Below, piece by piece: positions 2,547 through 53,766 of a stretch of 64,000 nucleotides of DNA (position 1 is the stretch's first letter; each line of letters begins with the position of its first letter). The position numbers and the translations under genes are program-made. The notes under the pieces were generated by a model that had not been told where the DNA came from, did no database searches, and saw only the letters and a list, made by a program, of their open reading frames with translations. Origin of the DNA: Chlorophyllum brunneum (lineage: Eukaryota; Basidiomycota; Agaricomycetes; Agaricales; Agaricaceae); contig OY756148.1 of the NCBI GenBank assembly GCA_963576785.1, positions 992,001 to 1,056,000 of the forward strand, written 5' to 3'.

Positions 2547-2580
2547 TTTTTTTTTTTTTTTTTTAAATCGTCATGTTTAA

Positions 2581-2604
2581 GGTGGTGTGCGAACACAGTC
2601 CACC
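2581..2604 (-). other. LINE-B 3'-terminal stem-loop
   Basis: On the minus strand the tail folds as GGTGG, bulge AC, TGTG, loop TTCG, CACA, CCACC. Equivalent structures with compensating base changes sit at the ends of LINE-A and LINE-C. It is a candidate reverse-transcriptase recognition hairpin, by analogy with eel UnaL2-type LINEs. Confidence 0.6.
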
Positions 2605-2671
2605 TGTATCTACTGTGACATGTAGGCTACAAAGGGTAGTTTACGAAGATAGGCTCTCCCCTGGCTGAGCT

Positions 2672-2691
2672 AGACCACCGACAGGTGGTCT
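2672..2691 (-). other. LINE-B 3' UTR hairpin
   Basis: AGACCACC and GGTGGTCT are perfectly paired around a 4-nt loop. The other LINE-B copies keep an 8-bp stem here with different bases (32843-32862 AGACTGCT/GGCAGTCT; 62553-62572 with G-U pairs), which suggests selection for structure. Confidence 0.5.
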
Positions 2692-2847
2692 GGGTGGACG
2701 GCCATGGAAACATGCACGGATGCGCGAATCCTAGGCCAGATATATAAGTGACCCCTAGCCTTCCCTTCCTAAGGAGAGTATGTGTCAATTTGCAATTAAC
2801 TTCTACACACGTCAGAAATGCGGGAAGCTAGCAGGGGTTGCATTGTG

Positions 2848-3219
2848 TTATCCAACTCCCGCAGGTGGTGTGTTGGTCTTAAACGCAAATGTGGAGGGAT
2901 TGCGTTTAAGGAAAGATACCAGCTGGCCAATAGAGACTAGTAGGCCACAACGTCTCTTGTACAAGGGACAAGAGTACAAGATATGAGTGCAAGTCTCCAA
3001 AGGAGCCCCACACTCGCAGCCAATAGGCTCTAGAGGATGAAACCGGGAGCGATACTCACCGGTTGGAGCATGCCCGAGAATGGCATGATTCACCCTTGTC
3101 GCAATGGACTGAGAGGGAAAGGAAGGAAGCCAGGAACCTCCATGGAGGTACGTTGGCTGTAGAACCTTGTTCTTACTATCCTTGAGGGCAAGGAAGTTAG
3201 AACCATGATAAGAGCCCAT
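2848..3219 (-). pseudogene. LINE-B ORF2 C-terminal fragment
   Basis: It encodes the last 123 residues of LINE-B ORF2. Motifs in order: LQPTYLHGGSWLPS, then NHAILGHAP, then the zinc-type motif C-x-C-G-A-P-L-E-x3-H-x4-C found after RNase H in many fungal LINEs, then FLKRNPSTFAF and the natural end AGVG. The frame is open but starts at the W junction and has no initiation context, so it is a fragment. Confidence 0.85.
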
Positions 3220-4637
3220 GTACAGAGACCCTTGAGGGAATCAAGCTCCTAGAGGCCCAGAGATGGGGGTCTTGAGACATCGTGTGCCTATAGAATGCCC
3301 AGCATGTTCCCAGGCTCCCATATTGGTGTTGCATCTGGCCATGTTGCAGGGACTTTGCCCCTCCCTCCTAAGAGGTAAAGCCTTTAGCTTGGGCGAACAC
3401 TCCGCTACTGAGAGAGCGCGGTATCCCTAAGGACCGGCCCACTGTTTGCTTGAGGCATCCTTCCTATATGGTGCACGGACGGGATCTCACCGCTTGACTG
3501 CACATGCCGCCACCCCAAAACCAGACCTCTCGCGTGGTAACAACTCAAATGGGTACACCCCAATCTTCACGGGGACCCACCGACAGAGGATTTTGACCTC
3601 TCGAGCCAGGCCGCTCCTTCTTGGTAACCGGGCGGCTTTTTTCAGCGCACTCCCAGTAAACGGCCTGCTACGGTCCACTAGTTGGGCAGGCAGAGGCCAC
3701 AAAGGCGTACCTCCAAGGCGCAACCCCTGGACTAGCTTCCCGTTCCCCCGCAGCTGCTTTCGCTATGCCCTACCCCCAAAGGAGGCGACTTGTCTTTGGG
3801 CACAGATCCGCATGCTAATACTGGCGGGGATCTCTGTCTCGCAGGGGGCGCTACCAGGGTGGTGTTCACATTGAATTACCTAAGCAACCCGTGGACCGGA
3901 TTACTTAAGCATTCCACGGAACAGGCGCCAATCAACCCGAGTTTCCCCAAGTCAACCCGAACCCACCCGTGCCCTGGAGTTTGGCATATCCCTACTAACG
4001 ACCAGGCGCTACCCCCAGAGGGGTTCCCAAAGGCATGGCAACACTGGTGGGGGGTGGCCTGTCCTTTCGGTCAGCTTGTTATCACTCTGTTCCCCCTATT
4101 ATCATCCCCTATCCTTTTGGGTGCGACAGGGCGGCTTTTTTCAGCATGCTCCCCACCGACATGCAAGCACGATTGGGGGTGGGCCTGGATGTCCGTCGTC
4201 AGCCGGTATAGCCCAGCCTCGAGATACTAGCCAGACTTGACCTGCAGCAGGGGTAAAAACCCACATGCGAACCCTATACGGGACTGCAAGCCCATCTAAT
4301 TGGTAGAAGGGCCACCACCACTGACAACCCAGCAAGCGCAAGTGAGCGAGGTGGCCAGTATCCCAGCCTTTAAGACCCTTTACCAAGGGGCTGCCTCATT
4401 GATCTGTGTGTATAGGCATCAGTCAGATGAATGGTGGGGATATGCCTACCTTTAATCGCCTTCACCAAGGGTGTGCCGCCCATTGACTGACTAATGTTGC
4501 CACTCGGACCGCCCCCCTACAGCCAGCGAAGGCTCAGAAAAGACACAAGTCCATGAGAGAGAGCCCGAGAAATGAATGGTGCGATGGGGAAAGGGAAGTG
4601 GAAAAGTGATGGTGGTGGTAACAAGTCAAGAAGCAAT
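3220..4637 (-). repeat. W element, copy 1 (unknown non-coding unit)
   Basis: W is a 1.4-kb sequence I do not recognise. It also occurs at 7799-8384 and 50213-51341. Shared blocks on its sense strand include GTTAGTAGGGAT...AAACTCCAGGGCA, CCCTGGTAGC-CCCCTGC-AGACAGAGA, GGCATAGCGAA, CTCGAGAGG-AAATCCT, and the 3' end CAAGGG-CT-GTA-A-GGG. The 5' end (ATTGCTTCTTGAC...TTACCACCACC) resembles the LINE-C 5' end. The motif GCTGAAAAAAGCCGCC occurs twice (near 3634-3652 and 4129-4147). Reading frames inside are short and not shared between copies, so a structured RNA is more likely than a protein gene. Confidence 0.75.
4353..4478 (-). other. W hairpin units, copy 1
   Basis: Two units each hold a C-rich CCCTTGGTRAAGG hairpin followed by a GG-rich hairpin (GGCUGG/CUGGCC; GGUAGG/CCCCACC). 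They correspond to three units in W copy 3. Copy 1 is more decayed, and its first C-rich stem is poor. Confidence 0.45.
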
Positions 4638-5967
4638 TTTTGCTGAAATGATCGACTATGACAAGTATTGCATCATATCCTTCTGATTCTGGTAGTGATC
4701 CTATCATGTCGATTGATATCTCCTCCCACGGTTCTACTGGTGTCGGTAGCAGATGGAGATGTGTTGTCGGTCTTATTCAGAGTATTTTGTTTCATTGGCA
4801 TGCTTCACATCCCCTAATGTATTGTTTGACGTTGTTGTGCATCTGGGGCCACCAATAACTCTGTTTAAGGAGTTCAATCATTCAATGTTGTCCTGGATGT
4901 CCTATATCAGTTTTGTTGTGGTGTTGTTGTAGTATTTCTTGTCGTATTTGATTGTTGGGTGGGATATATATTCTTCCTTTGAACATCGGTACTCCATCTG
5001 TTTCCCATACCTCCTTTGGTCGCTTCTCTTTTTCTTTTAGCCACTGTGTTTCCCTTCTTGTCTCCTTTCATAGTTGGTGTTTCAGATCTTCTTCTCCTGA
5101 GATTTCCCAGATTTGTTGGATTGTGGTGACTGTACTGTCATTGAATAAGTGGTCGGGTAGTAAGGTGATATTGGTGTTGTCTCGAGTAGTGTCTGTTTTT
5201 GTTAGTCTTGATAAGATGTCAGCTTTTGTGTTGGTTTTTCTGGGGATATGTTTCAGCATGTAATGGTATTCTTGTAGCTCTATCTGCCACCTTGCTTGTT
5301 GTCCTGTGAGTTGCTGTGGTTTTCGGAAGTATTCTAAGTTTTTGTGATTGGTCCATATTTCGAAGGGTTCATCTGCATCGAGTAAATATTGCCTCCAGAT
5401 CTTGATTGCTTCTCGAATGGCGAGTAACCCTTTATCATAGATTTGGTAGTTGTGTTCTGCGGGTGTCATTGTTCTTGAATGGAATGCGATCGGGTGCCAG
5501 TGTTCTTCTTGTTTTTGCGATAATACTGCTCCTACTCCATATCCCAATGCATCCACTTCTACTCTGTATTGACCCTTGTCCTGTGGCATTGCTAGTACCA
5601 GTTTGCTTGTGATCTTTTCTTTGATCCTTTTGAAGGCTTGTTGTTGTTGTTCCTTCCATACCCATTGCGTGTCTTTTTTCTTCAACTCATGTAATGGGGC
5701 TGCTATGTTGCTGAAGTTGTGAATGAATTGTTGGTAGAAGTTTGCGAATCCTAGGAATTTTTTGACATCTTTTAGGGATTTGGGTGTTGGCCATTCTTTC
5801 ACCACTTTCACTTTCTCCTCTTCCATTTTAACGCTGCCTTGTCCAACCACAAATCCTAGTATAGGTATTTCTTTTGCATCAAATATGCATTTCAATCTTT
5901 TGAAATATAGTTGGTGTTTTGCCGCAATGTCGAGAAATCATTTTGTTCTGTCCTCAAGCTCCTGTTG
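4638..5967 (-). pseudogene. G1 pol, RT end, RNase H and integrase front
   Basis: The open stretch 5068-5895 begins at K-C-I-F-D-A-K-E (RT thumb), continues through the tether EKFLGFANFY-like motif, RNase H (VEVDA..., YDKGLLAI, TNHKNLEYF) and into the integrase spacer. Upstream 5896-5967 still matches G2 (FLDIAAKHQLYFKR), with one stop. Downstream 4654-5067 carries the HHCC zinc region and first catalytic block in decayed form. RNase H has DAS changed to DAL and TDH to TNH, so it is dead. The start is lost where LINE-A poly(T) begins at 5968. Confidence 0.85.
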
Positions 5968-6517
5968 TTTTTTTTTATTTTTTATTCATGGCCTAAGGCC
6001 AATTTATTATGTGGCACTCGAACACAGCCCGTGGCTGGAATACAAAAGAGTAAACTAGCGGGTATCTACGGAGAAAGTGGTAAATACGCCCTACCAAGCA
6101 AAAGTACCGTTGCCCAAAACCAATGGTAGGAAGAATTGCATCCTACTCCTGAGCCCAGAGGGCGAGGGGAGTGGATGCCAGAAGAGGCGAGTGGGCAGGG
6201 AGGTCCCCCAACCAGCAACCTAGTCCGGAGACCAGGCCCGGTCAGTAAGTGTTAATTCACTGCAAATGCCCGGCAATGGAAACCCCCAGTTACCAGTCTA
6301 GCTACTAGCCCTCAAAGTCCTTCTTACTGAGAGTCATTCCCCCAGCCACGGTCACCCTTGCCAGGGTAATAGGCCACACCATTTGTGTCACTATCGGCGT
6401 CTTCACCACACCTAGTTGCCGAGGGGGACAACTCTGTTCATAAAACTCTGAGGGTCTTCACCGGACTTCCACTGGAGTTCTCTGGCGCCAGACAATAACC
6501 CACTTACCCTAAGCCAG

Positions 6518-7798
6518 TTATCCAATTCCCTGAGGAATGGATGGGAAAGCGAACACCTGAGGGTTTGCTTTCAAGAACTTGACAAGGGCACCCGGCATGG
6601 CAGGGTACCCCCGAGAGGTGTCAAACCGACTACAGTTGGTAAGAATATGCACACGAGACTCGAAAGGAGCCCTGCATGGATACCAGAATGGTTCATCCTG
6701 GAAGAACCGAGACCTATAGGCCCTGATAGGTGCATGGTTGAGTATAACCCTACACATGCGGGCGGACAGCGAGTTGGACTCTGCTGCAGCAGAAGGCAGC
6801 CACGACCCTCCATGGAGGTAAGTGGGCTGGAGGGGCTTACCGTTGCGCCCTTCGAGAGCCATGAACTGGCTACCCGAGTAAGTAGGATCCCGGAATCGAG
6901 TGATCCAGGCATCCTGGCAGGATTTGACTACCCTCTGACGAAGGAAGTCAAGGGAGGTTTGTGGATGGGAACCCGCAGCGACCTGAAGTTCGGTGCAGTA
7001 CTGGTGTATGGTACCATGAATGGCCCACTTCTCCGAAGAGTAGGTGTGCCAGATGTGAATGGAGCGTTCGGGGTGACCCTCAAACCACTCTATAAGAGCG
7101 TTACACATGGCAAGTGAGTGAGCCTGGCCAGAGTGAACAGAGGGGTCCACCGCTCTCTTGGCAGAGCCAAGGGAGTCAGTGAACAGGACAATGGAGTCAC
7201 AGTCAGGAAGGCCAGTGGCCTTTCCAATCGCGATCCGGATAGCGTACAGCTCCGCATCAGGAGCCGTCACTCAACCCGCCGCATGCCTCATCTGGAAGAC
7301 ATGCCAGCCTGACCGGTAGATATGGGCAGTGGAGACTGCCTGGAACTCCCCCTGCAGCGGTAGACTGGCATCTGTGGCCACAGCGAGAACTCGAGGATTG
7401 GCATTGGCATGTTCCAAGATGCCATTCAGATGCCTTATATGTACAGCTCTCTCGTCACGAGAACAAGGAGATTTGTGGAAGAAGACCTGGGCCACAAAGT
7501 GGTCCAGGAGACAGTGACCAGGCTGAGCCACTGCAGAGCAGGGGTCAAACTGTTCAGTAAGAGATGGGAGCATGGAAACGGCTTCCATAAGAGAACCTTT
7601 GACCTGCCTAACGAGTCAGTCAGACAGGAGGGAGATAGAGAGAGGGTGTGGGGGGGCACCCTTGGCATTCAGACGATCAAGGAGGGATTGGAGAGGGTGA
7701 GTATCGGAGAGGGTGGAGAGATGGTAGTTTGCTCTTGAGGCCAACTTCTTCAGATGGAGGTGGGCGGGGATGAGGCCAGCGAGGGCTTTGGCACCGCC
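6518..7798 (-). pseudogene. LINE-A ORF2 C-terminal fragment (RNase H to end)
   Basis: It covers about the last 425 residues of LINE-A ORF2: RNase H (VATDASLPL, DAELYAI, LFTDSLGSAKRAVD, HSGQAHS), LQPTYLHGGSWLPSAAAES, and the end PQGIG. An in-frame TGA near 7271 sits where the intact copy has CGA (AAGR-VTAPDAE). The zinc motif is damaged: C-x-C-G has become C-R in the YPCRAPFE segment. It is a dead fragment joined to W at its 5' side. Confidence 0.85.
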
Positions 7799-8384
7799 CG
7801 TCTACGGAGCCCCTTGAGGGGTCTCTTACCACCAGCCTTAGCCAATGGCGACGTGGAATCAACTTGAGCTGGAACCTGGCTATTTTTCCTGTACCAGGCC
7901 AACCAATATAGGATTTAGTCCTCTCGAGCCAGGTGAGCATTCTCTGATAACCGGCAGCTTTTTTTAGTACGCCCCGGTACATCACCTGCTACGGCCCACA
8001 ACTTCACCCAGATGCTACCCCGGAGTTGCTTCCTGTTCCTCAGCAGCCAGTTCGGTATGCCTTATGGCCCGGATCCCCGTGCTTAACTGTCTGAGATCTA
8101 CACCTTGCAGACACCGCTACCAGATTGGTCCTGAGGTTATTTTAAGCCAACTTAGTCAGCATCCTTAATCTGGAGATTGGGTTATGTCTACTAACTACCA
8201 GAACTATGCCAAAGTGGACCGGGAGGAGTATCCTATCTCGGCAGCTTTTTTCAGCATGCTCCGAGTCGGACTGTTATCACGACATTCCCCTTCTTATAAT
8301 ACCTTATCTCCAGCAGTGGCTTAGGTAATCCTCCCAAGTTAGGCCCCGGCATTAGGCACTACCACCTTTGGCCAATATTGGACT
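7799..8384 (-). repeat. W element, copy 2 (shorter, rearranged)
   Basis: It aligns with W copy 1 through the 3' end (CCCTCAAGGGGCTCCGTAGACGGG split at the junction), the CTCGAGAGG-AAATCCT hairpin, GGTAGC-GTGTCTGCAAG and the TTAGTAG-AT block. The GCTGAAAAAAGCTGCC motif is present twice (near 7949-7967 and 8240-8258), but closer together than in copy 1. The 5' part, including the LINE-like terminus and clear hairpin units, is missing or replaced by SINE sequence. Confidence 0.65.
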
Positions 8385-8678
8385 TGGGTGATGCACACAG
8401 CTGGGTCACACTGTGACAGTGTGACGTCACTATGTGACTTGCTATGTGGCTGGGTGTGACAACTCCCATGCTAGCCTATGACAGCCAAACAGGACCACAC
8501 AACCTAATCTGGTGTCACCCGGGAATATTGCTAAGCAACTATGCCTTGCGCACTGGTACTTCCCACAGTTGAGAATAAATCCCCCCCCACAGGTTTCGAA
8601 CCCAGGACCTTCTAGCCAAGCAGCCTGGTAGGAATTAAGCCTACACCCAAACCACTTGACCATTAGGCCAACTATCCT
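8385..8678 (-). mobile_element. tRNA-derived SINE-like element
   Basis: The minus strand begins with a tRNA-like head: an A-box-like TGGTCAAGTGG (8662-8652) and a B-box GGTTCGAAACC (8602-8592), spaced as in a tRNA with a long variable arm (Ser/Leu type). A body of about 210 bp follows, containing a 9-bp hairpin GTCACACTG/CAGTGTGAC around a 3-nt loop (8405-8425). These are internal RNA polymerase III promoter signals. I see no poly(A) and no convincing target duplication, so the left end is approximate. Confidence 0.6.
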
Positions 8679-8838
8679 AAGCCAGTTATCCAATTCCCTG
8701 AGCAATGGATGGGAAAGTGATCGCCTGAGGGTTCACTTTCAAGAACTTGACGAGGGCACCCGGCATGGCAGGGTACCCCCTAGAGGTGTCAAACCAACTA
8801 CAGTTGGTAAGAATATGCACACGAGACTCGAAAGGAGC
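8679..8838 (-). mobile_element. LINE-A ORF2 C-terminal scrap
   Basis: This piece encodes the last 50 or so residues of LINE-A ORF2 on the minus strand (APFESRVHILTNC zinc motif, FLKVNPQ, ending GIG) plus about 15 bases after the stop. It is cut on the 3' side by the SINE and on the 5' side by the LINE-C start. It lies next to, but is distinct from, the LINE-A part of the W chimera, which has its own copy of the same region. Confidence 0.8.
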
Positions 8839-12801: not shown

Positions 12802-12841
12802 TTTTTTTTTTTTTGAATCATGGCCTAAGGCCGATTTATTA

Positions 12842-12865
12842 CACGGTGCTCGAACGCAGCCCGCG
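12842..12865 (-). other. LINE-A 3'-terminal stem-loop
   Basis: The minus strand reads CGCGG, GC, TGC, loop GTTCGA, GCA, CCGTG, with both stems able to pair. It has the same layout and loop type as the LINE-B and LINE-C tails. AATAAATCGGCC and poly(A) follow. Confidence 0.55.
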
Positions 12866-13346
12866 GCCGGGATACAAAAGAGTAAACTAGCGGGTATCTA
12901 CAGAGAAAGTGGTAACTACACCCTACCAAGCAGAAGTACCGTTGCCCAAGACCAACGGTAGGAGGAACCGCGTCCTACTCCCGAGCCCGAAGGGCGAGGG
13001 GAGTGGACGCTAGAGGAGGCGAGTGGGCAGGGAGGTCCCCCAACCAGCAACCCAGTCCAGAGACCAGGCCCGGTCAGTAGGTGTTAATTCACTGTAAATG
13101 CCCAGCAGTGGAGACCCACCCAGTTACTAGCCCAGCTAAGCCCCAACTCCCTTTTACTGAGACTCAGTCCCCCGGCCACGGTCACCCTTGCCAGAGTAAT
13201 TGACCGCACCATTTGTGTGGCTATCGGCATCTTCACCACACCTAGTTGCCGTAGGGACCAACTCCGTTCATCGGTCGCCGAAACCGTTGCCAAGTCTTCA
13301 CCAGGGGCCCCCGGTGCTGGACAATAACCCACCCACCCTGAGCCAG

Positions 13347-16300
13347 TTATCCAATTCCCTGGGGAACGGATGGGAAGGCGAACGCCTGAGGGTTCGCTTT
13401 CAGGAACTTGACAAGGGCACCCGGCGTAGCAGGATACCCCCGAGAGGTATCAAACCGACTGCAGTTGGTAAGAATATGCACGCGGGACTCGAAGGGAGCT
13501 CCGCACGGACACCAGAATGGTTCGTCTTGGAAGAATCGAGACTTATAGGCCCCGATAGGCGCATGGTTGAGTATAACCCTACACATGCGGGCGGACAGCG
13601 AGTTGGACTCCGCTGCGGCAGAAGGCAGCCACGAACCTCCATGGAGGTAAGTGGGCTGGAGGGGCTTACCGTTGCGCCCTTCGAGAGCCATGAACTGGCT
13701 ACCCGAGTAAGTAGGATCCTGGAATCGAGTGATCCAGGCATCCTGGCAGGATCTGACGGCCCTCTGACGAAGGTAGTCAGGGGAGGTGTGCGGACGGGAA
13801 CCCGTGGCAACCTGAAGTTCAGTGCAGTATTGGTGTACTGCACCGTGAATGGCCCACTTCTCCGAAGAATAGGTGTGCCAGATGTGGACGGAGCGTTCGG
13901 GGTGACCCTCGAACCACTCCATAAGGGCGTTACACACGGCAAGCGAATGAGCTTGACCTGAGTGAACGGAAGGGTCCACCGCTCTCCTAGCCAAGCCTAG
14001 GGAGTCAGTGAACAAAACAATGGAGTCGCAATCAGGGAGGCCAACGGCCTTCCCAATTGCAATCCGGATAGCGTACAGCTCAGCATCAGGAGCCGTCACT
14101 CGACCTGCCGCATGTCTCGTCTGAAAAACACGCCGGCCCGACCAGTAGATATGGGCAGCAGAGACTGCCTGGAACTCCCCCCGCAGCGGTAGACTAGCGT
14201 CTGTGGCCACAGTGAGAACCCGAGGGTTGGCATTGGCACGGTCCAGGGTGCCATTCAGATGCCTTATGTGCACAGCCCTCTCGTCACGAGAACGAGGAGA
14301 GTCGTGGAAAAGGACCTGGGCCGCAAAGTGGTCCAGGAGACAGTGACCAGGTTGAGCCACTGCAGAGCAGGGGTCAAACTGTTCAGTGAGGGATGGGAGC
14401 ACGGAAAGAGCTTCCATAAGAGAGCCTTTGACCTGCCTACCAAGCCGGTCAGACAGGAGGGAGATGGAGAGAGGGTGCGGGGGGGCACTCTTGGTATTCG
14501 GACGATCAAGAAGGGATCGAAGAGGGTGGGTATCGGAGAGGGTGGAGAGATGGTAGTTTGCTCTTGAGGCCAACTTCTTCAGATGGAGGTGGATGGGGAT
14601 GAGGCCAGCAAGGGCCTCGACGCCGCCGGATGGAGAGGTGCGGAACGCACCGGTGATCCACAACGCAGCCTTGCGTTGCATAGTGTTTAGGGATTTGATG
14701 ACGCCCTTGCACCGAGCCTTATCAAAATACCACAGACGGAAGCCATATGTCGCGATAGGTACGACACATGACCTGAAGAGGAGCCGCTTCTGCTTGGGGG
14801 TCAGACCGCGGGAGGAGTTACCCAGCATCCCCATTGCTTTCACGGTGGAGAGGGCCTTGGTAGAGTAGTGTCGAACATGTTCCTGAAAATTCAGGGCACG
14901 GTCGAAGTAAAAGCCCAGGTACCTCCAATAGGTCTTAGGGCAAAGAGGAGTGTTCCCTGTGAATGGGCCGAAGCCAAGATCAAGGGGGGGATTGATGTCT
15001 CCAGGCTTCCTAGAGAAGTGGAAGAGCTCGGACTTATCATGCTCCATGACAAGTGCGAATGCTACAAAAAGATTGAAGAGAACGATGTACGCCCCTTTGA
15101 GGGTGTCCAAGTTCTCGTCCCAGGTCTTAGCCTGGGCAACGACGGTACCGTCATCGACATACGACAGCAGAGTACACCCAGGGGAGGTGATCCGCAAGTC
15201 GAAAACCTTCATGAGGGGCGCAATATAGAGGCCAGAGAGGACGGGGGACATGGCAGAGCCCTGCCCGACGCCCACATCTGCACCCCGAGGGTCAGAGGAG
15301 AAGCCGTTCCATGTGTAGACAGTAGAACGGCCCACCAAATACGAAGCAAAGAAGGTTCGCACGTTAAGTGGGAACCCCTGCTTGGAAAGAATAGCCATGA
15401 GCATCTCATGGTTAAGAGAGGGAAAGAACTGAGCGATGTCAAAAGCAACCACGCTCGTCTTGAGACCTTTAGCCCACCCAGCGCGAACTAGGTGGGTAAG
15501 GAACAACCCGGCGTCCTCAGTGGAACGTTGGCGAATGCCTCCAAGTTGATGGGGATGAAAGATGTCATGTTTAATGGCATCAAACTGGATACAGTTGGAA
15601 AGCATTTTCTCAACCAGTTTACCAAGCATGTTCAGGAGAATGATTGGCCTGAACGCCTTGGGGGTGGAGTAGGAGGGCTTCCCCAGCTTCGGGATGATAA
15701 CCGAGAGCGACTCCTTAAAACTGCGTGGCCAGTGCCCCACCGAGAGGCAGGTGTTGGCCAAACGCAGGAACACCGTCAAACAATCTTCATCGATGACAAT
15801 GTACTTCAGATGGGACCACGTAATGTGGTCCGGACCTGGAGAGGACGTATTAGAACAGGAGGACAAGGCCTCCTTAAGTTCCAACGCCGAGAAGGGGGCC
15901 CACTCCCGGACTGGAAGATCTGGGAGGGGGTCGAGGACAGATGCATCACACCGCTGATCAGCAGCGGAGTTGTACGTAGAGTGGAGGGCATCCCAGAGAG
16001 AGCCCATGGTATGACAGGGCTGTCCGTTAAACTGGATAGCCTCGCAGGGAGGTAACTTGCGTGCCTTGACCCATTCCATAAGGTCCCATGGCCGCTTGTT
16101 AGTGGAAGCGATTTCCTCAATCTTAGAGTCGAAGAACCGGCGCTTGGCAGCTGTACGAGCTCGCCTAAAGTCCCCCCAGTCACCCCGACTACGAGAGTCC
16201 TGGTACCTGGAGAAGGAGGCAGCACACGCCTTGTCCCACCAGGGATGAGTGCGGCGCGTAATCTGGATCTCCTTTGAGTGGTGTGTCCACGCATCGGAGA

Positions 16301-17258: not shown

Positions 17259-19185
17259 GCACCTCTCGATAGCGGGCAGTCAGCCAGGCCTGGTCGTGTT
17301 TGTGGTTCCAGAAAGCACACTTCCTGGAATCAGCGGGATGCTCCTTCTTGCAGTTACGGCAGTGAGGAGGATGGGGGCACGGTTGACCAGTAGGGGTAGC
17401 AGGAACCGGAGGCGTAGCCTTCGGTTGCCCCTTACAACACAGAGCAAAAGTGCGGTGATTAGCACGAGAGTGCGCACCACCGCAGTCAGGACATGCCGGG
17501 CCATTGGCCTTGCACCAGGAGGAGGCGTGGCCCCACTTGTAACAGCGGGTACATAGCGACTCGTTACGACGAGGGTTAGCAGAGAGTATCACGCACTGCT
17601 TGTTCCCAAACATGATCTTCTTGTTCAGAAGACCGAGAGCTTGGGTACCCCTCATGGAGTCCCAGATGTCAAAAAACGCCATACATGAGTCAGATGTCTT
17701 GGAGTTGCGCACCAGCCTAGGGGGACCCTTCAGGCTGATGAGAGGAGCATGCACCGACGAGGTAAGAACCTCCTCGACGTCTGCTGGGGTACACGGAACT
17801 CCAGCGGCAGAGTTCTTGAGGTACAGGACGTCGACCACATGGAGGTACGACACCGAAGATGGGAGTCCAATCCAGAAGGGGGCTCCTGGAGGGGACAGAC
17901 GTTCAACCAGCGCCCTAAGGATCTCAATGTCCTTGGTCGTGGCGAGTTTGTTGGTGGCCATGGAATAGCCATCATATGCGAGCGTGGCACCTTCCACGAT
18001 CAGAGAGCTTCTCCCAGCCTTCAGTGCCTTACAGGCCTGCTGGGTAAGAGTATGAAGACCAGCCGAGGCATTCGACTTGTCCTCATAGGAAACTAGGACC
18101 TGCTTTCGCGACGGTCCGGGAATCATGAACGCTGGCTTCTTAGGGCGAGCATTCGATGAGGGGGATTGCTTCGCAGCCTCAGCCTGCGAATGAAGGCTGA
18201 GGAGCTGCTCTGCAGAGAGATGGGGGAAGGCCGCTTTCAATGCAGAAAGCGGCTCCGCCCCAGACTTGGTCGAGGCCGGTTGTTTCACTGCAGCCGAGTA
18301 AGCCTTCTGTCCTGGCTTGGGCTTTGAAGTGATCGTGGAGGGAGGAGGACCAGAGGGCCTCTTGTAGGGGACCTGAGGCTTAGTAGGAGCCTTAACAGGT
18401 CGGACTGGCGCCTTCCCCTTGGGGTCTGTGCGCGGGCGTTTGACTGGAGTCTTCTCCGGGTCCATAAGATCGTCCTCCTCCTGCACAGGGGCTCTGCGCT
18501 GGGGGGGGCCGAGGGTAGAAGGTCCTGGTACCCTGGGAGGGGTAGCCGGGGGCCTATAAGTCACCACTGGGAGAGCAGGAAATGCCGAAGCAATCGAGTC
18601 CCTCAGGGAGAGAGAGTCACTCGCCCCTGTGTAGGTTTCACGCCACATGGGGGAGGATGCAACCGTCTGGACTATCTCAGATAGTCGAGAGGCGATGGGA
18701 CAGAAGGACGGAGCGTCCTCCTGGGGAATGAGATGCGCCGTCTTCATGAAGTCGGCAACAATCTTGAGCGACCATTGGATCGCATCAGCATCCTCTCTGG
18801 CACTAATGTTGATGCCCAGGATAGAGAGGGGGGCGGCGGTAGGCTCCTCCTGGTCGTCCTGTTCCATAGCCTCCAGGGTAGGAGGAGGAGGGGAAGACAG
18901 GGGGAGGGACGAAGCCCTGGCTTCTGCACCAGGAGCTGGGATAAGTCAAGAGGGGGTTGGGGACCCGTGTCGCAACAGAGTGTGTCCCCTCTGCTGAAGG
19001 GGAACTGCGGGGGCATAGGTATCCCTGGCACTGCTGCCGTAGGGGGGGATACCCAGAGAATAAGGGCCTGGGGTGGACCTGGGGGGGGGACCGGCCGCTG
19101 CCTCGAAGGCAGTGGCCATGTCATCGTCGTCTGAGGAGGCCTCGCGATGAGCGCTCGTCCTCCTCCTCGAACTGCGAGTAGGCAT
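17206..19185 (-). pseudogene. LINE-A ORF1 (zinc-knuckle protein) with one in-frame UGA
   Basis: From ATG 19185 the frame is open to TAG 17206-17208 (659 codons) except for TGA at 18946-18948. Downstream ATG 18867 gives 553 aa. The N-terminus (MPTRSSRRRTS, acidic S-S-D-D-D-D) is conserved in four LINE-A copies, so I take the long form as ancestral. In the copy at 35985 the aligned codon is CAA; CGA mutated to TGA or CAA explains both. Middle: basic Pro-rich linker, then MIPGPSRKQVLVSYEDKS and a conserved domain. C-terminus: three zinc knuckles (CTRCYKWGHASSWC, CPDCGGAHS...C, CRNCKKEHPADSRKC). Likely role: RNA binding in the LINE particle. Confidence 0.85.
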
Positions 19186-38068: not shown

Positions 38069-38084
38069 ATCATCAATTTATATA

Positions 38085-41400: not shown

Positions 41401-42504
41401 TCTGCTCTTCCGGTCCGCTCGGTGTGTTGCCAGCGCCGTGGCGCACTCTTCGTTCCACCAGGTCTTGGATCTGGCGGTGATCTTGGTCTTCTTCGCGTGG
41501 CGGTCCCAGGATCTGTGAAACAAGCCTCCGAGTTCTTCGACGGAATTCTCCAACTCGTCCGCGTCAGTCATCGGCCACTCTCTGTCAATGACTCCTTGCG
41601 TGACATCCGCGAGGAATCTGGTTTCGTTGTCCGATCCCTTAGGCATCGTCAATCTCTCTATGACGACGTCCGTACGCGGGATCGGGATGTCGATACGCAG
41701 GGGGGCGTGGTCCGAATTGTACCGGTCGCCCGCCTGGATGGTGTGGGAGGGGATGTGGGGTAACATCGCCGAGACAAAGATGAGGTCGATGACCGTATCC
41801 GGGAGATTGGGGTCCGCGGCGTATCGCGTTGGAATGGCCACGGTCGGAGTCGTCCTGACCAGATTGAGGGCTTCAGCGATCATGAGCAACCGGTCCGCAC
41901 TCGGCGGGTGTTGCGCCGTCGAAGGGTCCCATAGCTCAGATCTGATATTAATATCGCCTCCCACCAGAACGAAAGGAGGCAGGTCAAAAAGTCGCTCCTC
42001 GAGGAAGTGGAGCGCGGTGTTGCGACTGTCGTTGTAGACATTGAGCAGAAGCAGTTCTTCTCCTCTCGCGTATAAAGATACACACAGGAGGTCTCGATGG
42101 TCGATAATGTCTTGCCGGACAGATGGTCGTAGTTTGGCGAGTCTCTTGTGGGCGAAGGCCAAGACTCGAGGTATGGTGCGGTGGTTAAGGTCAACCGTAC
42201 GTCCAGGGAAACGCCGGCGTCCAACTTGGAGGACTTCTTCGGCAGGGGGGGGATAGGAGAGGAGTGTCCAGTCAGGGTGGACCGGGCCTCCTACGATTGG
42301 GACTCCGTCGTTGGAGATGGGGGAAGGGATGTTGCGGAGGTATCTCCACGGGGGTTCTTGTATGAGGAGGAGGTCGACGTCACCTCTGCGCGCGAGGACT
42401 GTCTCCATCACTCCGTACGATCTTCCAACGTTGTGCGAGCAGACCTTCAACTCCCTCAGTAGCGAGCGAGGAGGTCCGTCGTTTGCGCCGGGTGTGTAAC
42501 TCAT
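38455..42504 (-). pseudogene. LINE-C ORF2: endonuclease, RT, RNase H; one UGA
   Basis: 1,349 codons in one frame, broken only by TGA 39757-39759 (L-A-E-UGA-Q-M-S); the aligned codon in the copy at 51342 is CAA, so CGA is likely ancestral. Domains: endonuclease (KVCSHNVG, LLIQEPPWRYL, GGDINIRSELWDP, NSDHAPL), RT (AFRPIVLLNTLGKLVEK, FDVAQFFPSLNH near 621, GVGQGSALSPIL, SFVDDGTLV near 720, an FVDD variant of YVDD), RNase H (GTDGSVHPNPN, TDTELVAQYLAI, FTDSLIASRLLLD), zinc motif CHHCDNQMVQTRSHILYRC. The ATG overlaps the ORF1 stop. Confidence 0.93.
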
Positions 42505-44618
42505 TTGGGGGGGTTGGTCTGGCTTCGACCAGCCGGGGAAGAGGAGGGAGGGGCGAGCGGGACTCCCTTGTTGGCCCTAAGCTCAAGGGCTTTGTTGGCG
42601 TGCCAGTCGTGGTCGAATCACTTCTTCCAGAACAGGCACTTGCGGTCAGTGGCGAGGTGTTCCTTGCCACAGTTGGGGCACGATGCCTTGTGAGGGCACG
42701 GTTCACCGGCGGGGGTAGCCGCAATAGGTGGGTTGGCCTTGTCGTTGCCCTTGCAACAGTTGGCGAAGGAGCGGTGATTGGCGACGGAGTGGGGGCCCTT
42801 ACAGTGCGCGCACACAAAGAGTCTTGCCCGACATCGAACTAGAGGGTGGCCCCACCTGCAGCACTTGCCGCAGAACGGGACGCCCGGGTTGGCGTTGGCC
42901 TTCCTGATGCGGTAAAGACCGCCGTAGATGTTGAGGAACTTGTCCTCGATTTTGTTGACGTTGGATCCCGCCTTGGAATCCCATATCTCGAACCACACCG
43001 TGCAGGTGTCCGAGTGTTTGGAGTTGCGTCGCACCCTCGGGGGGGACACGAGATGGATGGCATCCGAGTGGATCAACCCACGGATGCTAGTGGTGACGTC
43101 TTCGGCTGTCAGGATTTGGCCGCGAGGGGTGACGTAGGATACGTCCGTGATCTTCACAAACGACTTGGATTTCGGGAGGGAGGCTTCACCAGTGGTGGTT
43201 CCCTCAAACTTGTCTTTGAGCCAGGCCCTGACGGCGTCAAGCTCAGCCGGGGTCAAGACCTCCGAGGTGTGGACCATGAGGCCCAGCTTACCCTGCGAGG
43301 TGGCAATGACCCGGGTTTTCGATTTACCCGCGATGAGGCAGGTATTAAGAGAGTCGATGATGGTACCGAAGTTGGGGGAAATCGGACCAGTCAGGAGGGG
43401 AATGATCACCTGCTTGCGCGAAGGACCATTAAGTGTCGAGCGGATAGTGGCCGCCTTTCTGGTCGGCCTCTTGTCTGTGGGGGAGGAGGGGGAGAAGGCG
43501 GCGTCGTACATAGCCACCACCTTATCGTGTGCTAATTCCGGGAACTTGCTGGCGAGCTCCAGGAGTTTGAGGGGGTCCCGCCCGATGGTGGCAGGAGGGG
43601 GGGCTTTTGGGGCTTTTGCCCCGGCCGCGGCCGCAGCATAGGAGGACTTGGCCCGGTGGGTCGGGGCCTCGGGGGCAGGGGCAGGTTTGGGGGCTGGCGC
43701 GGCCTTGGGCGGGCCAGCAGAGGGGGTGGGGGCCGGGGCTTTCGGGGGCTCGGGCCAGGCGGCCTTGGCCCATCGTGTCCTCGGCTTCTTCCTTGAGACA
43801 GTCCGGAACTCTGCCTCAGTAATCATCTGGACGTCCTCATCAGGGACGTCATTGGTCTTGGCATCTTCGGCGATGCCCGGCGTGATAATCTGCTCGACAA
43901 CGTCCATGCGGACGTCAGCAGGTTTGCGTGCGGCGGGGGCCCGGCGCAAGGGGGAAAGGTCGGGCTGGGGGGTCTCCTCAGCGCGGACGACGATCTTGCC
44001 GAAGTTGACTCCAAGCCAACCGTGGAGGTCGTTCTTCTCCTCGTCGACGGCCACCTTAAGCCATCCCGCTTTCATCAAGGTGCCCGTTAATTCGACAAAG
44101 GCGCGCCCGAAAGCGAGCCCGTCGTCACCGCTCATGTTGAACATGCTGCAGGCCTTGACCCACTCAGAGATCTTGCTGACCTCCAGAACAGCCGCGTCGT
44201 AGAATTCCTCGGGGTTCTCCCGATCTTCATCCTCGATCGTCACTTTTGGGGCCAGTTCCTCCTCCACCTGCTCGGCCCAGTCCTTGTCCTTTCCAGCCTC
44301 GCCGGAGTAGTAGTGATCGCCCTCCTTTCTCGGGCGTTTGGAAGACCTGTGCGGGGTTTTCGCCGTGGTGCCTACAGTGGGAACCGCGGGGGGGGGTGGA
44401 GTGGTCGGGGCGGCCACAGGGGGGGCGGCGGTCGTGCCACCCAAGGGGCTGGGACCAGTAGCAGTGGTTGTCCTGGCGCGCAGGGTACCAGGGGAGGGTG
44501 GAGCCGTGGAGGGCGCGAAGAGAGAGGAGGCGGGGGCACGTGGCGAGTACCCGAAGACATCTTCCTCACTATCGGACGCAGGATCTCTGCGAGAGAGATC
44601 GGAGCGTAAGGCAGGCAT
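42501..44618 (-). pseudogene. LINE-C ORF1 (zinc-knuckle protein); one UGA
   Basis: 705 codons from ATG 44618, with TGA 42618-42620 in place of an Arg codon (W-K-K-UGA-F-D-H-D). N-terminus: acidic S-D-S-E-E-D, long Pro/Ala/Thr-rich region, then EFYDAAVLEVSKISEWV and a Pro/Ala linker. The central domain (RKQVIIPLLTGP, IIDSLNTCLIAGKSKTR, YVTPRGQILTAEDV) follows. C-terminus: CGKCCRWGHPLVRC, CAHCKGPHS...C, CPNCGKEHLATDRKC. The last codons give ATGA with ORF2. The truncated product would keep all zinc clusters. Confidence 0.9.
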
Positions 44619-44729
44619 ATTATTTATCCTAGTACTTGTACTCTCAACCGTATAATCGACTTTTTACAAATCGATGGTGGTGGTAAGAGTCAAAGAAGGG
44701 ATGTTTGTATTTTGTCTGCTTGTTCTTCT

Positions 44730-49236: not shown

Positions 49237-49680
49237 TGTTGAACAGCATAGTACATGCAGTAGCAGATGGATAATCTGACTTACTGATAGTGTAAGTAAG
49301 TAAACAGTTAGTGAACTTAGTGAGTTGTTGAGAAAGTCAAGTAGAGTGAGTAGAAATCTGAGTGGATTGTCTTAAGAAATAAAGGGAATACATACTGCTT
49401 TATATACTAAATGTTCAGGTAGCAAACCCTAAGACCTATGAGTAATAATAGGCATAATTGTGTCAGTAATGATACTAAAGTCTCTTGAAATACTGCAATA
49501 TCATTAGTAGTGTCCAGTAGCATAATTGGAGCAACAGCAATCAGTCAGCTCATTAGATACATGAGAAAACAGTGCATAATGTAAGTCAGACGGTGCAGCC
49601 TCAATGATGAATAAGAGATGAATAATATACTGTGGAGCTAGTCATATGGAATACAGCTATGGTAAGCACAAATGACAACA
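49237..49680 (-). repeat. C1 5' LTR
   Basis: 444 bp with TGTTG...CAACA inverted ends, next to the PBS. Its outer end meets C2 integrase sequence (tagag...). The partner LTR is not in the window. Confidence 0.75.
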
Positions 49681-50212
49681 TAGAGTGCCTCCTTTCAATC
49701 CCAGCCTGCTCAGTGAATCTCAAAAATGCTCCAGACATGTATTCACCACCGTTATCATCCTGTAGAGCTTGAATTTTCATCCCCAGTTGATTCTCAGCCC
49801 ATGATTTGTAGACTTTGAATGCTTCAAAGGCCTCAGACTTGGCCTTGAGTGGGTAAACTGCTCGAAAATGCATAGAATCATTGATAAATGAGATCTAGAA
49901 CTTGTACCCTTGAACTATGCTGACTGGGAGTAGTCCATGGAGGTCTGTGTGTACCAGATCGAGTGGGGAGTGGTTGTAACTGAGGGAAGAGGGGAATGGG
50001 TTTGCATGCATCTTTCTTGCAAGGCATGGTTTGCAAATAGGGTCTGAAGTAGTAGTAGAGTTGAGTTTAAGGCTCTTGACTGACCATCTTCTTTACATCA
50101 GCATAATTGTGGTGAATAAAGCACCTGTGCCATAGAGAGAGGTCCAGAGGGAGGGTAGAGGTGTGGAGGGTCGTTTCAGAGTGCCTGGTGATGCCATTGA
50201 GTGATGCTGAGT
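49681..50212 (-). pseudogene. C2 integrase fragment
   Basis: From right to left: a pre-integrase block (LSLWHRCFIHHNYADVK), a zinc-type C-x2-C near 50020, a catalytic block with PLHGLL-like context, FRAVYPLKAKSEAFEAFKVYKSW and LQDDNGGEYMSGAFLRFTEQAGI. The last holds a catalytic D. One stop lies near 50080. It ends where the C1 LTR begins. Confidence 0.78.
50199..50212. repeat. Target-site duplication of the W/LINE-C chimera
   Basis: gagtgatgctgagt occurs exactly here and at 53767-53780, directly after the chimera's poly(A). It encloses W and LINE-C together. Confidence 0.92.
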
Positions 50213-51341
50213 CATCCCTTCTTGACCTCTTACTACTACCTTCCTAATTGGGATGGTTCTCTGGTTGGGGGCTTCTGGCCTGTTCTTACTGGATGTTAGG
50301 TCCTGGCACTGTCTTATACACAGGGTGATGCATAGTACTCCCTTGGCGAAGGAGGTTAAAGGCTGGGTATGCTGGCTGCTGTGTACTCGCTTGATCTTAG
50401 ATGCGCAAACAGAGGTTGGGATCTGTCATATGGTGGATGAGAATTAGTTCGAGCGGGGGGAGTGGCCCCTTGGCGAAGGGCCTTAATGACGGGGTATGCC
50501 TGTCGCTTTCTCTAGATGAGAGTTGATACCGGGTCGTACAGGACGGTAGGGGGTGCCCCCTTGGCAAAGGGGCTCAAAGACTGGAAATGCCGGTCGTTTT
50601 CTGCCCGTTCACCTTGAGGGTTCCTCTAGTGGTGGAGGGACCCAGCGCACTCCCAAAATGGTGTCGTAGTTCCCCAATGGCAGGACTAGTGTTGGTTTAT
50701 TTGACTGAGCTGCGGTACAAGTCTAGTCTAACTAGGCATCTATTCCAACATGGGAACTATGGGAGAGGCTTCATTCTGCCCCGTTCCCCAGCTGGGGGTG
50801 CATTGAGAAAAACCACCCAGCTGAGCCCGAGAGGGTCCAAAAGGATAGAAGTTGATAAGAGGGGGTTAGGGCAAAAAACAAGCCAACCACAAGGACAGGC
50901 TACCCCCCTCCAGGTGCATTGGGTACAGATCCATCTCCCCTGGCCACGCTGGACGTTAGTAGGGATCACTCAAACTCCAGGGCACTATTCCACGTGGGTG
51001 CCGCAAGGCATTCCATGGATTTGCTTTATAAGCAAGGTGCGATCACCTCCCTGGTAGCAGCCCCTGCAAGACAGAGACCCCAGACACCATTAACACACGG
51101 ATCCGCACCCTATGGGCATAGCGAAGCCGGTGCTGGGGTACGGGAAGCCAGCCGGGGGTGGGACCCTGGAACTACTGGTAGGCTATGGCGGACTATGCAG
51201 AGAATGTGCGGCCCAGCCAGAGAGGTCTAAATCCTCTGTCAGTGGGTCTCGGAGAGAAGCCAAGTGTACCTGCTTAAGTTGATACTGTGATGCCTCCTTT
51301 GGGGGGTAAGGGCATTAGTCTGCAAGGGGCCCCTTAGTCGA
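50213..51341 (+). repeat. W element, copy 3
   Basis: 1.13 kb in sense orientation: LINE-like 5' terminus, three tandem hairpin units (50337-50596), a central part sharing GTTAGTAGGGAT-AAACTCCAGGGCAC, CCCTGGTAGCAGCCCCTGCA, GGCATAGCGAAGCC and CAGAGAGGTCTAAATCCTCT with copy 1, and the 3' end CAAGGGGCCCCTTAGTCGAG. There is no conserved long ORF. Confidence 0.78.
50337..50596 (+). other. Tandem covarying hairpin array in W
   Basis: Three units, each a hairpin around CUUGGCRAA followed by a second hairpin. First stems: CUCC/GGAG, GGCCC/GGGCC, GCCCC/GGGGC. Second stems: GGCUGG/CUGGCU, GACGGG/CCUGUC, GACUGG/CCGGUC. Bases change on both sides while pairing (with G-U) is kept. Units start at 50337, 50464 and 50555. 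Confidence 0.6.
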
Positions 51342-53256
51342 GCTCCTCCTTCACATTTTTGACATCTGTATGGAGGAACACCATAACAGATGGGACTTTG
51401 ATGTCCTTTTGTTTGTCGACGATGGTACCTTAGTCGCACAATCCCCGTCCCTTGAACGGAACATCGAAATTCTTCAACACATGTACCACAAAATGGAGTG
51501 GCTTATGAATGAATTTGGCCTAGAAATTGAACACAGCAAGTCTGAAGTCTTTCACTTTATGCGTGCAAGGCAGGACTCGAATCCCTCTATTGATTTGGGA
51601 TCACCACCGTTCACTGGCCACACCTCCCTCAAACCGAAAACCCATTGGCGTTATCTCGGTTTCTACTTTGACCGGATGTTGACCTTCAAGGAACACATTC
51701 GATTCTACTCCGCCAAAGCAATATCCACAATTGAGGTGATGAAAATGCTAGGGAACTCCGTAAGAGGTCTGTCCCCCGGCAACAAAAGATTATTATACTG
51801 TTCGTGTGTTGTACCAGTGGCAACATACGGATACCGACTTTGGTTTCATGATAGGTCACAGACTAAAGGGACTTGTGAAATCCTCAACAAAATGCAAAGA
51901 AGTGTGGCACTCTGGATTACCGGGGCCTTCCGGACTTCTCCCACAGGCAGCATCGAGTCCCTTGTGGGGCTCATGCCCATAAAACTCCATCTCCGAAAGT
52001 TGGCTGAACAACAAACATCGAGGCTTCATACATTGGACGATAAACACACATTGGCAAGATTGATGAAGGAGTATCATTCATCCCCTCACCAACTTCACAT
52101 CAAGAATTTCATGGAGATTCAGAAGAAGAAGACACTTGGAGCTATGATGGATATTTCATGCCCCACCCCCGAGACTCATTATGTAGAACATTTTAACTCT
52201 GTTTCTAAATCTGTCTGGCCTGGATGTAGGTTACTTGACCATTTCCCTACTAATGTATCTTTTACAGGATTTAACCAGGACAGCCCTCACCTCTCAAAGA
52301 CGCTTTGGGATAATGTTATGACTAACATGACAACGGATAACAAGTCCATTATCATCGGCATGGATGGCTCGGTCCACCCCAACCCCAACCCACTTGCCAG
52401 CCAGTTCACGGTGGCAGCTACTATTTGACACCTAGATGGCGGGAGCTCTATCATGAAGAGGCTCGGAGGAACTACATCAACAGACACTGAACTGGTCGCA
52501 CAGTACTTAGGAATCACCAAGGTACTTGCAACTGCAGAATATGACCAGGTTGAGCACATTCACATGTTCACCGACTCCATCGCAGCCTCTCGGCTCCTAC
52601 TCAATTGTTCGCTACACTCTTGCCAGCGACAATCCATCCTCACATTGAAGGCACTCCTGGCTTGGTTCAACAAGTCAGACCAGCACCACCTTTCCTTCTA
52701 TCACACACTGTCAAAGTGTAAATACGGTATACAGAAAGCCACTCACAATTGGATTCAAACAGTCGCCTGGCCTAATCGGGGTAGAAATCACCGAGTCCCT
52801 AACTCAGTGGACTACTTATGCAAGAAGTCCACCGAACAAGCGATCCATACATGGCAGGCCATGTTCGGATTCAAGAAATACAGCGGTAGCTCCTTCCTCC
52901 ACCTCCCGGTGTGAGCGAATGGGGCCTCCGCTTTACCGTCGCACATCAAGTCCGGTCCCTGGATACGAGAATGCAGTCACCAGCCTCAGCTCTTTGCAAG
53001 AGCATGTCACACCATCCTATGCCATGCCCCGATTGGGGAGTTTCGACTTCAATTCTTCCCCAACGAGGACCTTTCATGCCACCACTGTAACAGTCAAATG
53101 GTACAGACTAGGTCGCACATCCTCTATCATTGCAACAACTTCGATCATCATTTTGGAGTTGACACCATCAAGACTTTTGTCAATTTCTTGCATTGTAACC
53201 CCACCGCATTCAGCTCCCTCCAGAACCTGACCACCCTCATATCCGCACTAGGTTAA
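51342..53256 (+). pseudogene. LINE-C ORF2 C-terminal part in the W chimera
   Basis: It opens in RT just before LLFVDDGTL and includes the RT end, linker, RNase H (GMDGSVHPNPN, TDTELVAQYLGI, FTDSIAASRLLL), NSVDYLCKKSTEQAIHTW and the zinc tail (CHHCNSQMVQTRSHILYHC). In-frame TGA codons at 52426-52428 and 52912-52914 sit at Arg codons of the full LINE-C. No frameshift is needed up to TAA 53254-53256. Confidence 0.85.
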
Positions 53257-53766
53257 TACCCCCATTACATCATCGTCAAGTCCAAAGGAGGTTTGGGTTT
53301 GCACCTGTGTAAATCCTTTTCTCTCTCTCTTTTTTCTTATGCTCTCCTGGTTATGGACTTCAAATTCATTTCTCTATCTCTCCCTTCCTCACTCGTCTAC
53401 TATTTTATAGATAGTTTTCATTCAAAATCCATTCCTCCCGTAGTGTCTGGGCAAATGCCCTCCCACATGCTAGTACCGTTTGTTGTTCCCCCTTGTGATT
53501 GCAAGTAGATAGTTTCTTTCTATCAATTTCTCTCTCTCACTCTCTCTCTTTCTGATTTCCTCTCTCCCTCTTTCTCGCTGATCAACGTAGGTACCAAACA
53601 TCTCTCTAGTGTATGCGCTAGACAGTGTCGAGTCTCAAGGGGCTAGTTTACACATAGTTTACTTTTCCTGCTCTGAACATTCTGTATGTTCTAACTTTGT
53701 ATATCTGTACATGCGGACTGCATTTGAGCACCGCTATATAAATTGTTGATTAAAAAAAAAAAAAAA

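Follow-up and report, generated by a model that had tools for sequence, protein, structure and literature searches.

Non-coding repeats with a fixed 3' end joined to truncated LINEs in a mushroom genome: three related families and LINE breakpoints that follow the non-coding partner

How does a non-coding sequence come to stand directly in front of the truncated 3' parts of different long interspersed nuclear elements (LINEs)? The question is raised by a stretch of 64,000 nucleotides of Chlorophyllum brunneum DNA (C10:992001-1056000; the window hereafter), part of a genome of 38.9 Mb in 14 contigs. The window is crowded with LINEs and also holds one gypsy-like and one copia-like element (translations read by eye); nested repeats are abundant in the region. 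An earlier note on the window described three occurrences of a non-coding unit, W, each 5' of, abutting and in the same orientation as the 5'-truncated 3' part of a LINE with poly(A). Reading the sequence confirms this arrangement in three composites, 2547-4637 (minus strand), 5968-8672 (minus strand) and 50213-53766 (plus strand), which consist of the following parts.

2547..3214, minus strand: 3' part of LINE-B, truncated on its 5' side where W1 joins, with poly(A) (T-run 2547-2564)
3215..4637, minus strand: W1 unit; 5' end at 4637 like the 5' end of LINE-C, 3' end ..GTACATGGG
5968..7796, minus strand: 3' part of LINE-A, truncated on its 5' side where W2 joins, with an A-rich tail
7797..8672, minus strand: W2 unit; 3' end ..GTAGACGGG
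50213..51342, plus strand: W3 unit; almost the same as the LINE-C 5' end in its initial ~28 nt, 3' end ..TTAGTCGAG(C)
51343..53766, plus strand: 3' part of LINE-C, truncated on its 5' side where W3 joins, with the C-terminal half of open reading frame 2 (ORF2), 3' untranslated region and poly(A) 53752-53766

The three units had been taken for copies of one W. They are instead three diverged, colinear non-coding families, W1 (~1.42 kb), W2 (~0.88 kb) and W3 (~1.13 kb), which by blastn have only short pieces in common (69-96% identity). Family profiles, made from 23 W1, 11 W2 and 8 W3 copies, extend the homology to ~970 bp (colinear) between W1 and W3, ~450 bp reaching the 3' end between W2 and W3, and ~340-580 bp between W1 and W2, with best-hit E-values of ~1e-20 to 1e-79 between families. 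This colinear homology indicates three old branches of one superfamily. The extents first given require minor corrections for W1 (3215-4637 rather than 3220-4637) and W3 (the start at 50213 stands, the end lies at 51342 or 51343 rather than 51341); that of W2 (7799-8384, 586 bp) was too short, the unit covering 7797-8672 (876 bp).

W is abundant. Genome searches, in which 40 candidates were scored per query so that the counts are lower bounds, gave at least 48 match rows for W1, at least 42 for W3 and at least 40 for W2. A pattern for the shared W core matches the genome 165 times, against one match of the reversed control, so W is not a chance resemblance. Patterns for the 3' ends of W3 and W2 match at 41 places (reversed control 1) and 71 places (control 0), respectively. 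Among the matches listed, W1 and W2 mostly form one cluster per contig and W3 is dispersed. The clusters are probably pericentromeres, and the LINE partner may set the insertion target in this respect.

The sequence that follows the 3' end of W was read at 80 junctions, spread over 13 of the 14 contigs: 62 classed junctions (W1 21, W2 14, W3 27), the W3 copy of locus L047, two further junctions and another 15. The set leaves out three short-ending W1 alignments (L031, the second copy in L027 and the first block of L043), alignments stopped by the end of a locus, W3 matches without the 3' end and some further W3 matches. In the junctions read W is always 5' and in sense, and all 62 classed junctions run on into a LINE. 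W1 is joined to LINE-B (18) or LINE-A (3), W2 to LINE-B (10), LINE-A (2) or LINE-C (2), and W3 to LINE-C in 27 of 27 cases. The two further junctions connect W1 with LINE-B and W2 with LINE-C, the partner at L047 looks by eye like LINE-C ORF2, and the remaining 15 run into sequence that is present elsewhere in the loci without W and carries no family class. The suggestion that one W partners with three LINE families accordingly holds for W2 (A, B and C) and fails for W1 (A and B) and W3 (C only). No LINE was found that has W as its ordinary 5' region, not every genomic W copy having been read. Two candidates for a solo W in chromosome arms, on contig C8 and at 261 kb of contig C12, both proved to be W-LINE chimeras; another candidate, L067, falls short of the W 3' end. 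At one locus on contig C4 (L029 742-2165, identical with L035 5942-7365), W1 is joined just 5' of ORF1 of LINE-A, possibly a nearly complete LINE with a W1 leader.

On the W side the place of joining is fixed. W1 ends in ..CAAGGGGCTCCGTACGCGGG and variants thereof, W2 in ..CAAGGGGCTCCGTAGACGGG and W3 in ..CAAGGGGCCCCTTAGTCGAG(C). The ends are similar across the families, the last base being G in all three and GC in many W3 copies. Among the copies read the 3' end is constant per family rather than freely varying, and it falls at a homologous place across the families, as the note had proposed for the three window units. Non-templated addition was considered as the source of the terminal GGG/GAG and rejected because the terminal bases are constant per family, bar likely C>T/G>A decay. 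On the LINE side, the family and the nucleotide vary while the W 3' end stays fixed, so the varying join place seen in the window extends to the genome survey. Breakpoints were placed with the help of LINE copies in the window:

12802..18945, minus strand: long LINE-A copy, stop-to-stop ORF1 17206-18945 and ORF2 13347-17279; breakpoint reference for LINE-A
38053..44703, minus strand: long LINE-C-like copy, stop-to-stop ORF1 42618-44663 and ORF2 38455-42576; breakpoint reference for LINE-C
62428..64000, minus strand: LINE-B copy that spans the W1 junction point without W and ends at the window edge

The ORF2 protein of LINE-A contains endonuclease and reverse transcriptase domains; its best 25 matches are 49-60% identical, and the named ones are from Agaricales, mostly Cyclocybe and also Candolleomyces.

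Both parts of a composite entered the genome together. Of 43 W 5' ends tested for target-site duplications, 27 have an A-run downstream within the sequence retrieved; there the 5' flank was compared with the bases that follow the A-run, for identities of 9-15 bp. A duplication is present in 15 of the 27 copies, compared with 4 of 530 shuffled pairs; eleven are 11-15 bp long and four 9-10 bp. The duplicated composites cover W1 with LINE-A and LINE-B, W2 with LINE-A, LINE-B and LINE-C, and W3 with LINE-C. As the duplications lie around the whole composite, the chimera integrated as one retrotranscript. Two composites of the window are bounded in this way, and for the W2 composite the same test found no duplication:

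2531..2541, no strand: target-site duplication TTTTGCTGAAA (11 bp), LINE (3') side of the W1 composite
4638..4648, no strand: the same duplication, W (5') side of the W1 composite
50199..50212, no strand: target-site duplication GAGTGATGCTGAGT (14 bp), 5' copy, W3 composite
53767..53780, no strand: the same duplication, 3' copy, W3 composite

Directly 5' of W2 lies one more piece of LINE.

8673..8838, minus strand: LINE-A fragment of 166 bp in the same orientation as W2, duplicating a stretch that is also present 3' of W2

It is possibly the third part of a tripartite LINE-A/W2/LINE-A chimera, for which a double template jump would account, or else an older target. By another route, 19 duplication-bounded units with a LINE tail were collected, 11 of which begin with W (one of them a 5'-truncated W2); this proportion is no rate, because the loci were picked around W. 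Three W2 copies start inside the unit, at positions 113, 170 and 252 of 876 (L006/L019/L028, which are one locus, L021 and L023, respectively), and are probably 5'-truncated. The copy at L023 is bounded by a 15-bp duplication, the only 5'-truncated W2 with a duplication shown, so that at this locus the copying of W followed that of the LINE and was not completed.

Composites appear for the most part to be joined afresh rather than re-mobilised as finished chimeras, as judged from the similarity of their parts. Eight pairs have an identical LINE junction. Only one of them, L041/L042, looks co-mobilised (W 99.2% and LINE 98.5% alike, with unrelated 5' flanks). In the other seven pairs the W parts are 88.5-93.3% alike, inside the range of 25 random W1 pairs (85.5-97.7%), the LINE parts are 82.8-92.0% alike (three of them over only 67-106 bp) and the flanks are dissimilar. 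The same LINE base thus seems to have been used repeatedly and independently. Most other junctions are unique, which suggests that W was presented repeatedly with the same 3' end.

The choice of the LINE base follows the W family. For W1 the LINE motif is C-Y-Y*C, for W2 it is Y-R*Y, typically C-G-A. These motifs were derived from one row per LINE site, with contexts taken from uninterrupted LINE copies and typed by hand. At 16 W1 sites position -3 is C in 16, position -2 is T in 13 and C in 3, position -1 is a pyrimidine in 15 and position +1 is C in 12; L043 has no context and is omitted. At 13 W2 sites position -3 is a pyrimidine in 13, position -2 a purine in 13 (G in 11), position -1 is A in 7, G in 4 and T in 2, and position +1 is a pyrimidine in 12. 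Here the context of L034 is borrowed from the same site in L038, and that of L033 (CGA) stems from the two closest LINE copies; with the first-listed GGA, position -3 is a pyrimidine in 12 of 13. The difference between W1 and W2 at position -2 is significant (Fisher P 1.5e-8) and remains so with LINE-B partners only (pyrimidine in 13 of 13 versus 0 of 8, P 4.9e-6). First-listed contexts taken by script, with no manual choice, give a pyrimidine at -2 in 19 of 20 W1 and 0 of 13 W2 rows (Fisher 2.4e-8). The W2 combination of -3 Y and -2 R is kept on LINE-A, LINE-B and LINE-C partners (2, 8 and 3 sites).

A held-out W2 set of 15 junctions at 14 sites, fetched later, agrees with the rule: 13 of 14 sites have a pyrimidine at -3 and a purine at -2 under either choice of context (background 0.226, P 4.5e-8), and none of the 14 has the W1 motif. 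The narrower CGH occurs at 9 of 14 sites if CG is taken where copies varied between CG, CA and TG, or at 5 of 14 with the closest copy only (P 1.7e-4; background 0.041). The W3 sites are weaker and C-rich (25 sites, partly from single LINE copies, after one row, L016, equal to its own W end, was dropped), with a pyrimidine at -2 in 22, at -1 in 19 and at +1 in 22. A W1 junction on C8, added after the main W1 count, departs from the rule at -3, the three bases before the join being TTT and the next one C or T. The LINE motif was also read as a group I omega-G, a hammerhead, a spliced-leader or a microhomology site, and no such reading fits all three families in one register. In particular, the AG acceptor at -2,-1 that spliced-leader trans-splicing calls for occurs at 0 of 16 W1 and 1 of 13 W2 sites, and W3 has mostly YY. 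Since the motif follows the W family and not the LINE, a role of W in the choice of the LINE base is the simplest interpretation. A site specific to the W family is not predicted by simple switching at pause sites of the LINE.

The 5' ends of W agree to within a few bases in full-length copies. LINE-C starts with CATCCCTTCTTTGACTCTTACCACC (two copies, 44703 minus and 8838 plus), W3 with CATCCCTTCTTGACCTCTTACCACT and W1 with ATCGCTCCTTGACTTGTTACCACCACC; the first ~28-32 nt of W1 and W3 resemble the LINE-C 5' end, and the likeness is limited to ~30 nt. At 8838-9019 of the window the 5' end of a LINE-C faces the W2 composite head-to-head, and the initial 30 nt of this LINE-C are like the W1 and W3 starts. 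It is followed at 9021-9199 by a reversed LINE-C tail of 179 nt that lies within LINE-C ORF1 (seen in L017) with a 13-bp duplication, CCGCCCCCTCCCT, and is thus a very short LINE insertion. W2 starts differently, with a head that looks tRNA-like by eye:

8593..8662, minus strand: W2 tRNA-like head, with A-box-like TGGTCAAGTGG at 8652-8662 and B-box-like GGTTCGAAACC at 8593-8603

Both boxes were matched by eye to the A- and B-box consensus; ARAGORN calls no tRNA anywhere in the window, the W2 head included.

W gives no convincing sign of encoding a protein. A three-base periodicity is not clear from the counts (W1 625/568/520, W2 94/105/127, W3 161/160/174; no statistical test), and stop-free lengths in sense are inside the shuffled range (in W3 up to 237 aa, shuffled maximum 253). 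On the antisense strand of W2, a stop-free stretch of 160 aa occurs in 6 of 11 copies (shuffled maximum 125). C>T and G>A changes make up 76% (W1), 94% (W2) and 65% (W3) of the substitutions among copies, an excess expected of methylated repeats. Rfam at gathering level has no match on the window; at E<=10 a W3 copy, a W2 copy and the first 1.04 kb of a W1 copy have only weak unrelated matches, and these scans contain no covariance-model match to group I or II introns or ribozymes. A structured W core has partial support. Between families there are 38 both-side changes versus 16.1 +/- 2.9 in shuffled alignments (0 of 500 reaching this value), and 97.5% of the alignment cells of the core are paired versus 31-46% in slid versions, with a structure that came from the same alignment that scored it. 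The hairpin GGCG-U-GCU-GAAAAA-AGC-CGCC occurs twice in W1 and also in W2; a search for it in viral contigs gave no match. At 50340-50610 W3 has a module, present three times, that resembles a pair of hairpins (CCCUUGGCGAAGGG .. UUAAAG .. GGCUGG..AUGCYGGYY), and similar repeats are found in W1.

On balance we think it probable that W is a superfamily of non-coding RNAs that parasitise LINEs, that it is joined to them by a jump of the reverse transcriptase onto the W 3' end, and that it helps in the choice of the site. A W RNA with a discrete 3' end would be available beside the LINE ribonucleoprotein. The LINE RNA would be reverse-transcribed at the genomic target until a hot spot is reached, where the enzyme would leave it, resume at the last bases of W and copy to the W 5' end; the W RNA would take part in picking the exact LINE base. 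The composite cDNA would then integrate with a target-site duplication. Each new copy would bring along the head of its W (resembling a LINE in W1 and W3 and a tRNA in W2) and so may be transcribed again; the W 3' end would be re-created each time, since most junctions read are new. A precedent for the joining step exists in the R2 non-LTR enzyme, which performs end-to-end template jumping in vitro, best with a 1-2 nt overhang complementary to the acceptor 3' end (PMC8857657). The original proposal of template switching onto a W RNA stands as far as a chimera made at the RNA or cDNA level is concerned (fixed W end, varying LINE, duplications); that the joining is a switch in preference to ligation or transesterification before reverse transcription is no more than probable.

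Several results weigh against this account. None of the 80 W 3' ends read, which are not all the genomic copies, belongs to a solo W, so a free W gene is missing from them. Three W1 alignments stop short of the usual 3' end: L031 resembles a join 36 nt upstream, and the second copy in L027 and the first block of L043 enter a T-rich insertion. The W3 copy at L052 stops three bases early, inside an 8-base identity with LINE-C. Between the terminal bases of W and the LINE motif there is no identity or pairing in one register for all families. Energy folding indicates no excess stability for the core (z 1.29, 0.32 and -0.36), for four 3' ends (z -0.14 to 0.42) or for 541 nt (z 0.13). Finally, two of the five covariation measures are not above all shuffles, as the other three are, with 6 pairs showing a both-side change (shuffled 6.4) and 21 further pair types (shuffled 21.8).

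The joining may instead occur between RNAs: W, with a defined 3' end, would be attached by ligation or transesterification to a LINE RNA that had been cleaved, and the resulting chimera would be retrotransposed. In its strongest form W itself selects and attacks the LINE RNA by pairing or catalysis, a half reverse-splicing that leaves W and the LINE 3' part. We consider joining of this kind unlikely, though it is the main rival of template jumping. It would account for a LINE site that is W-family specific even among LINE-B partners alone and for the terminal G of W (GC in many W3) and joins made in sense orientation through the W 3' end, and ligation is one of the two mechanisms considered for U6/LINE-1 chimeras (PMC13174262). 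It is opposed by the lack of any group I/II intron or ribozyme match in Rfam on the window or the W stretches scanned, by the failure to identify a W segment, homologously placed in all three families, with which the motif could pair, and by a motif of only ~4 nt. Improbable in our view is the further idea that the LINE RNA is selected, and perhaps also cleaved or attacked, by W, each family acting as a guide or ribozyme-like RNA with a short target preference of its own, whose product the LINE machinery only copies. If true, half reverse-splicing into the transcripts of other elements would be the way in which this RNA is mobile.

As unlikely as RNA-level joining, in our estimate, is that the motifs reflect several LINE reverse transcriptases or RNases, active at different periods, with W families active alongside by coincidence. 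In Magnaporthe a LINE-side motif, GCC*A/U, has been ascribed to the enzyme of the LINE MGL (PMC2104539), and in our data W3 is seen with LINE-C only. The W1 and W2 motifs differ on LINE-B itself (pyrimidine at -2 in 13 of 13 versus 0 of 8), and W2 keeps -3 Y and -2 R on all three LINEs. In a small sample of LINE-B tails, 8 from W1 and 4 from W2 chimeras, the two groups are mixed overall (similarity within groups 0.868/0.871, between groups 0.861, permutation P 0.18); three of the four W2 tails cluster together, as expected under separate periods.

W might also be the original 5' region of a LINE, the chimeras being internal-deletion derivatives that re-transpose as units. The ~28-32 nt of LINE-C likeness at the W1 and W3 starts, the W1 just 5' of LINE-A ORF1 at L029/L035 and the co-mobilised appearance of L041/L042 agree with this. 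We nevertheless regard it as very improbable: none of the long LINE copies in the window is matched by a W query, a single W family can have as many as three LINE families as partners, and the breakpoints read mostly differ, the shared ones looking mostly independent. That nested insertion or an assembly artefact set W beside LINEs, in a region rich in nested repeats, is hardly credible, as it is contradicted by duplications that enclose both parts and by the junctions read, which lie on 13 of 14 contigs and have W in sense on the 5' side.

Template jumping onto a W RNA, the account favoured here, can be compared with several known systems. Short interspersed nuclear elements (SINEs) with a tRNA head may have a common central domain and a LINE tail (HaSE1/HaSE2 kind). 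W2 resembles them in a head that looks tRNA-like by eye, in a body that W1 and W3 have in common with it, and in a poly(A)-bearing 3' part that derives from a LINE. It differs in that W measures 0.9-1.4 kb and is followed by up to several kb of LINE, the W1 and W3 heads are LINE-like, and there is no fixed LINE tail, the LINE part varying in family and breakpoint. Unlike in half-LINEs, which are non-autonomous deletion derivatives, the 5' region of a W chimera does not come from the same LINE, only ~30 nt being LINE-C-like. The R2 enzyme of Bombyx mori likewise passes from a template end to the 3' end of another RNA; that work concerns purified enzyme, short templates and no natural acceptor RNA family (PMC8857657). 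In mammalian U6-LINE-1 chimeras a full-length non-coding RNA stands 5' of the LINE in sense with duplications, as W does, and a template switch or RNA ligation has been proposed (PMC13174262). The donors of U6, U3, 5S and Alu-LINE-1 chimeras are housekeeping RNAs or SINEs (same source), whereas W is a repeat family of its own, LINE-joined at every 3' end read.

The nearest known case is, as the earlier note had it, MINE (WEIRD-MGL) of Magnaporthe, which has the same plan. As described in PMC2104539, LINE 3' parts that vary in length are preceded by a full-length non-coding RNA of ~1.1 kb, with 10-20 bp direct repeats, LINE-side hot spots with a short base motif, no solo RNA-gene copy found and one tripartite case. 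Thirty-three such chimeras are reported there, the RNA being of unknown nature, associated mainly with one LINE and without homologue in the genomes then available. W and WEIRD, which are likened here by description and not by sequence, are both full-length 5' RNAs with a constant 3' end, a 5'-truncated LINE of varying breakpoint and duplications. W differs in its Agaricomycete-like host and in its numbers (165 core matches versus 33 MINE chimeras), its three diverged families with three LINE families, its LINE- or tRNA-like heads and its W-dependent LINE motif. Among the matches listed in the open-access literature searched, most subscription papers being outside the search, there is no report of such chimeras in mushrooms, of an RNA superfamily with several LINE families or of a site rule that depends on the RNA partner. 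We conclude that the W chimeras are of the MINE kind in another fungal group, and that a breakpoint rule following the W family is apparently new, at least to us. This second, larger and multi-family instance supplies the comparison that was missing while MINE stood isolated. On this evidence RNAs of this kind may be ancient parasites that diverge over time, carry LINE- or tRNA-like heads and are mostly rejoined per insertion, and the LINE breakpoint seems to depend in part on the RNA partner; with two site rules on one LINE, template switch and RNA ligation become testable with natural substrates.

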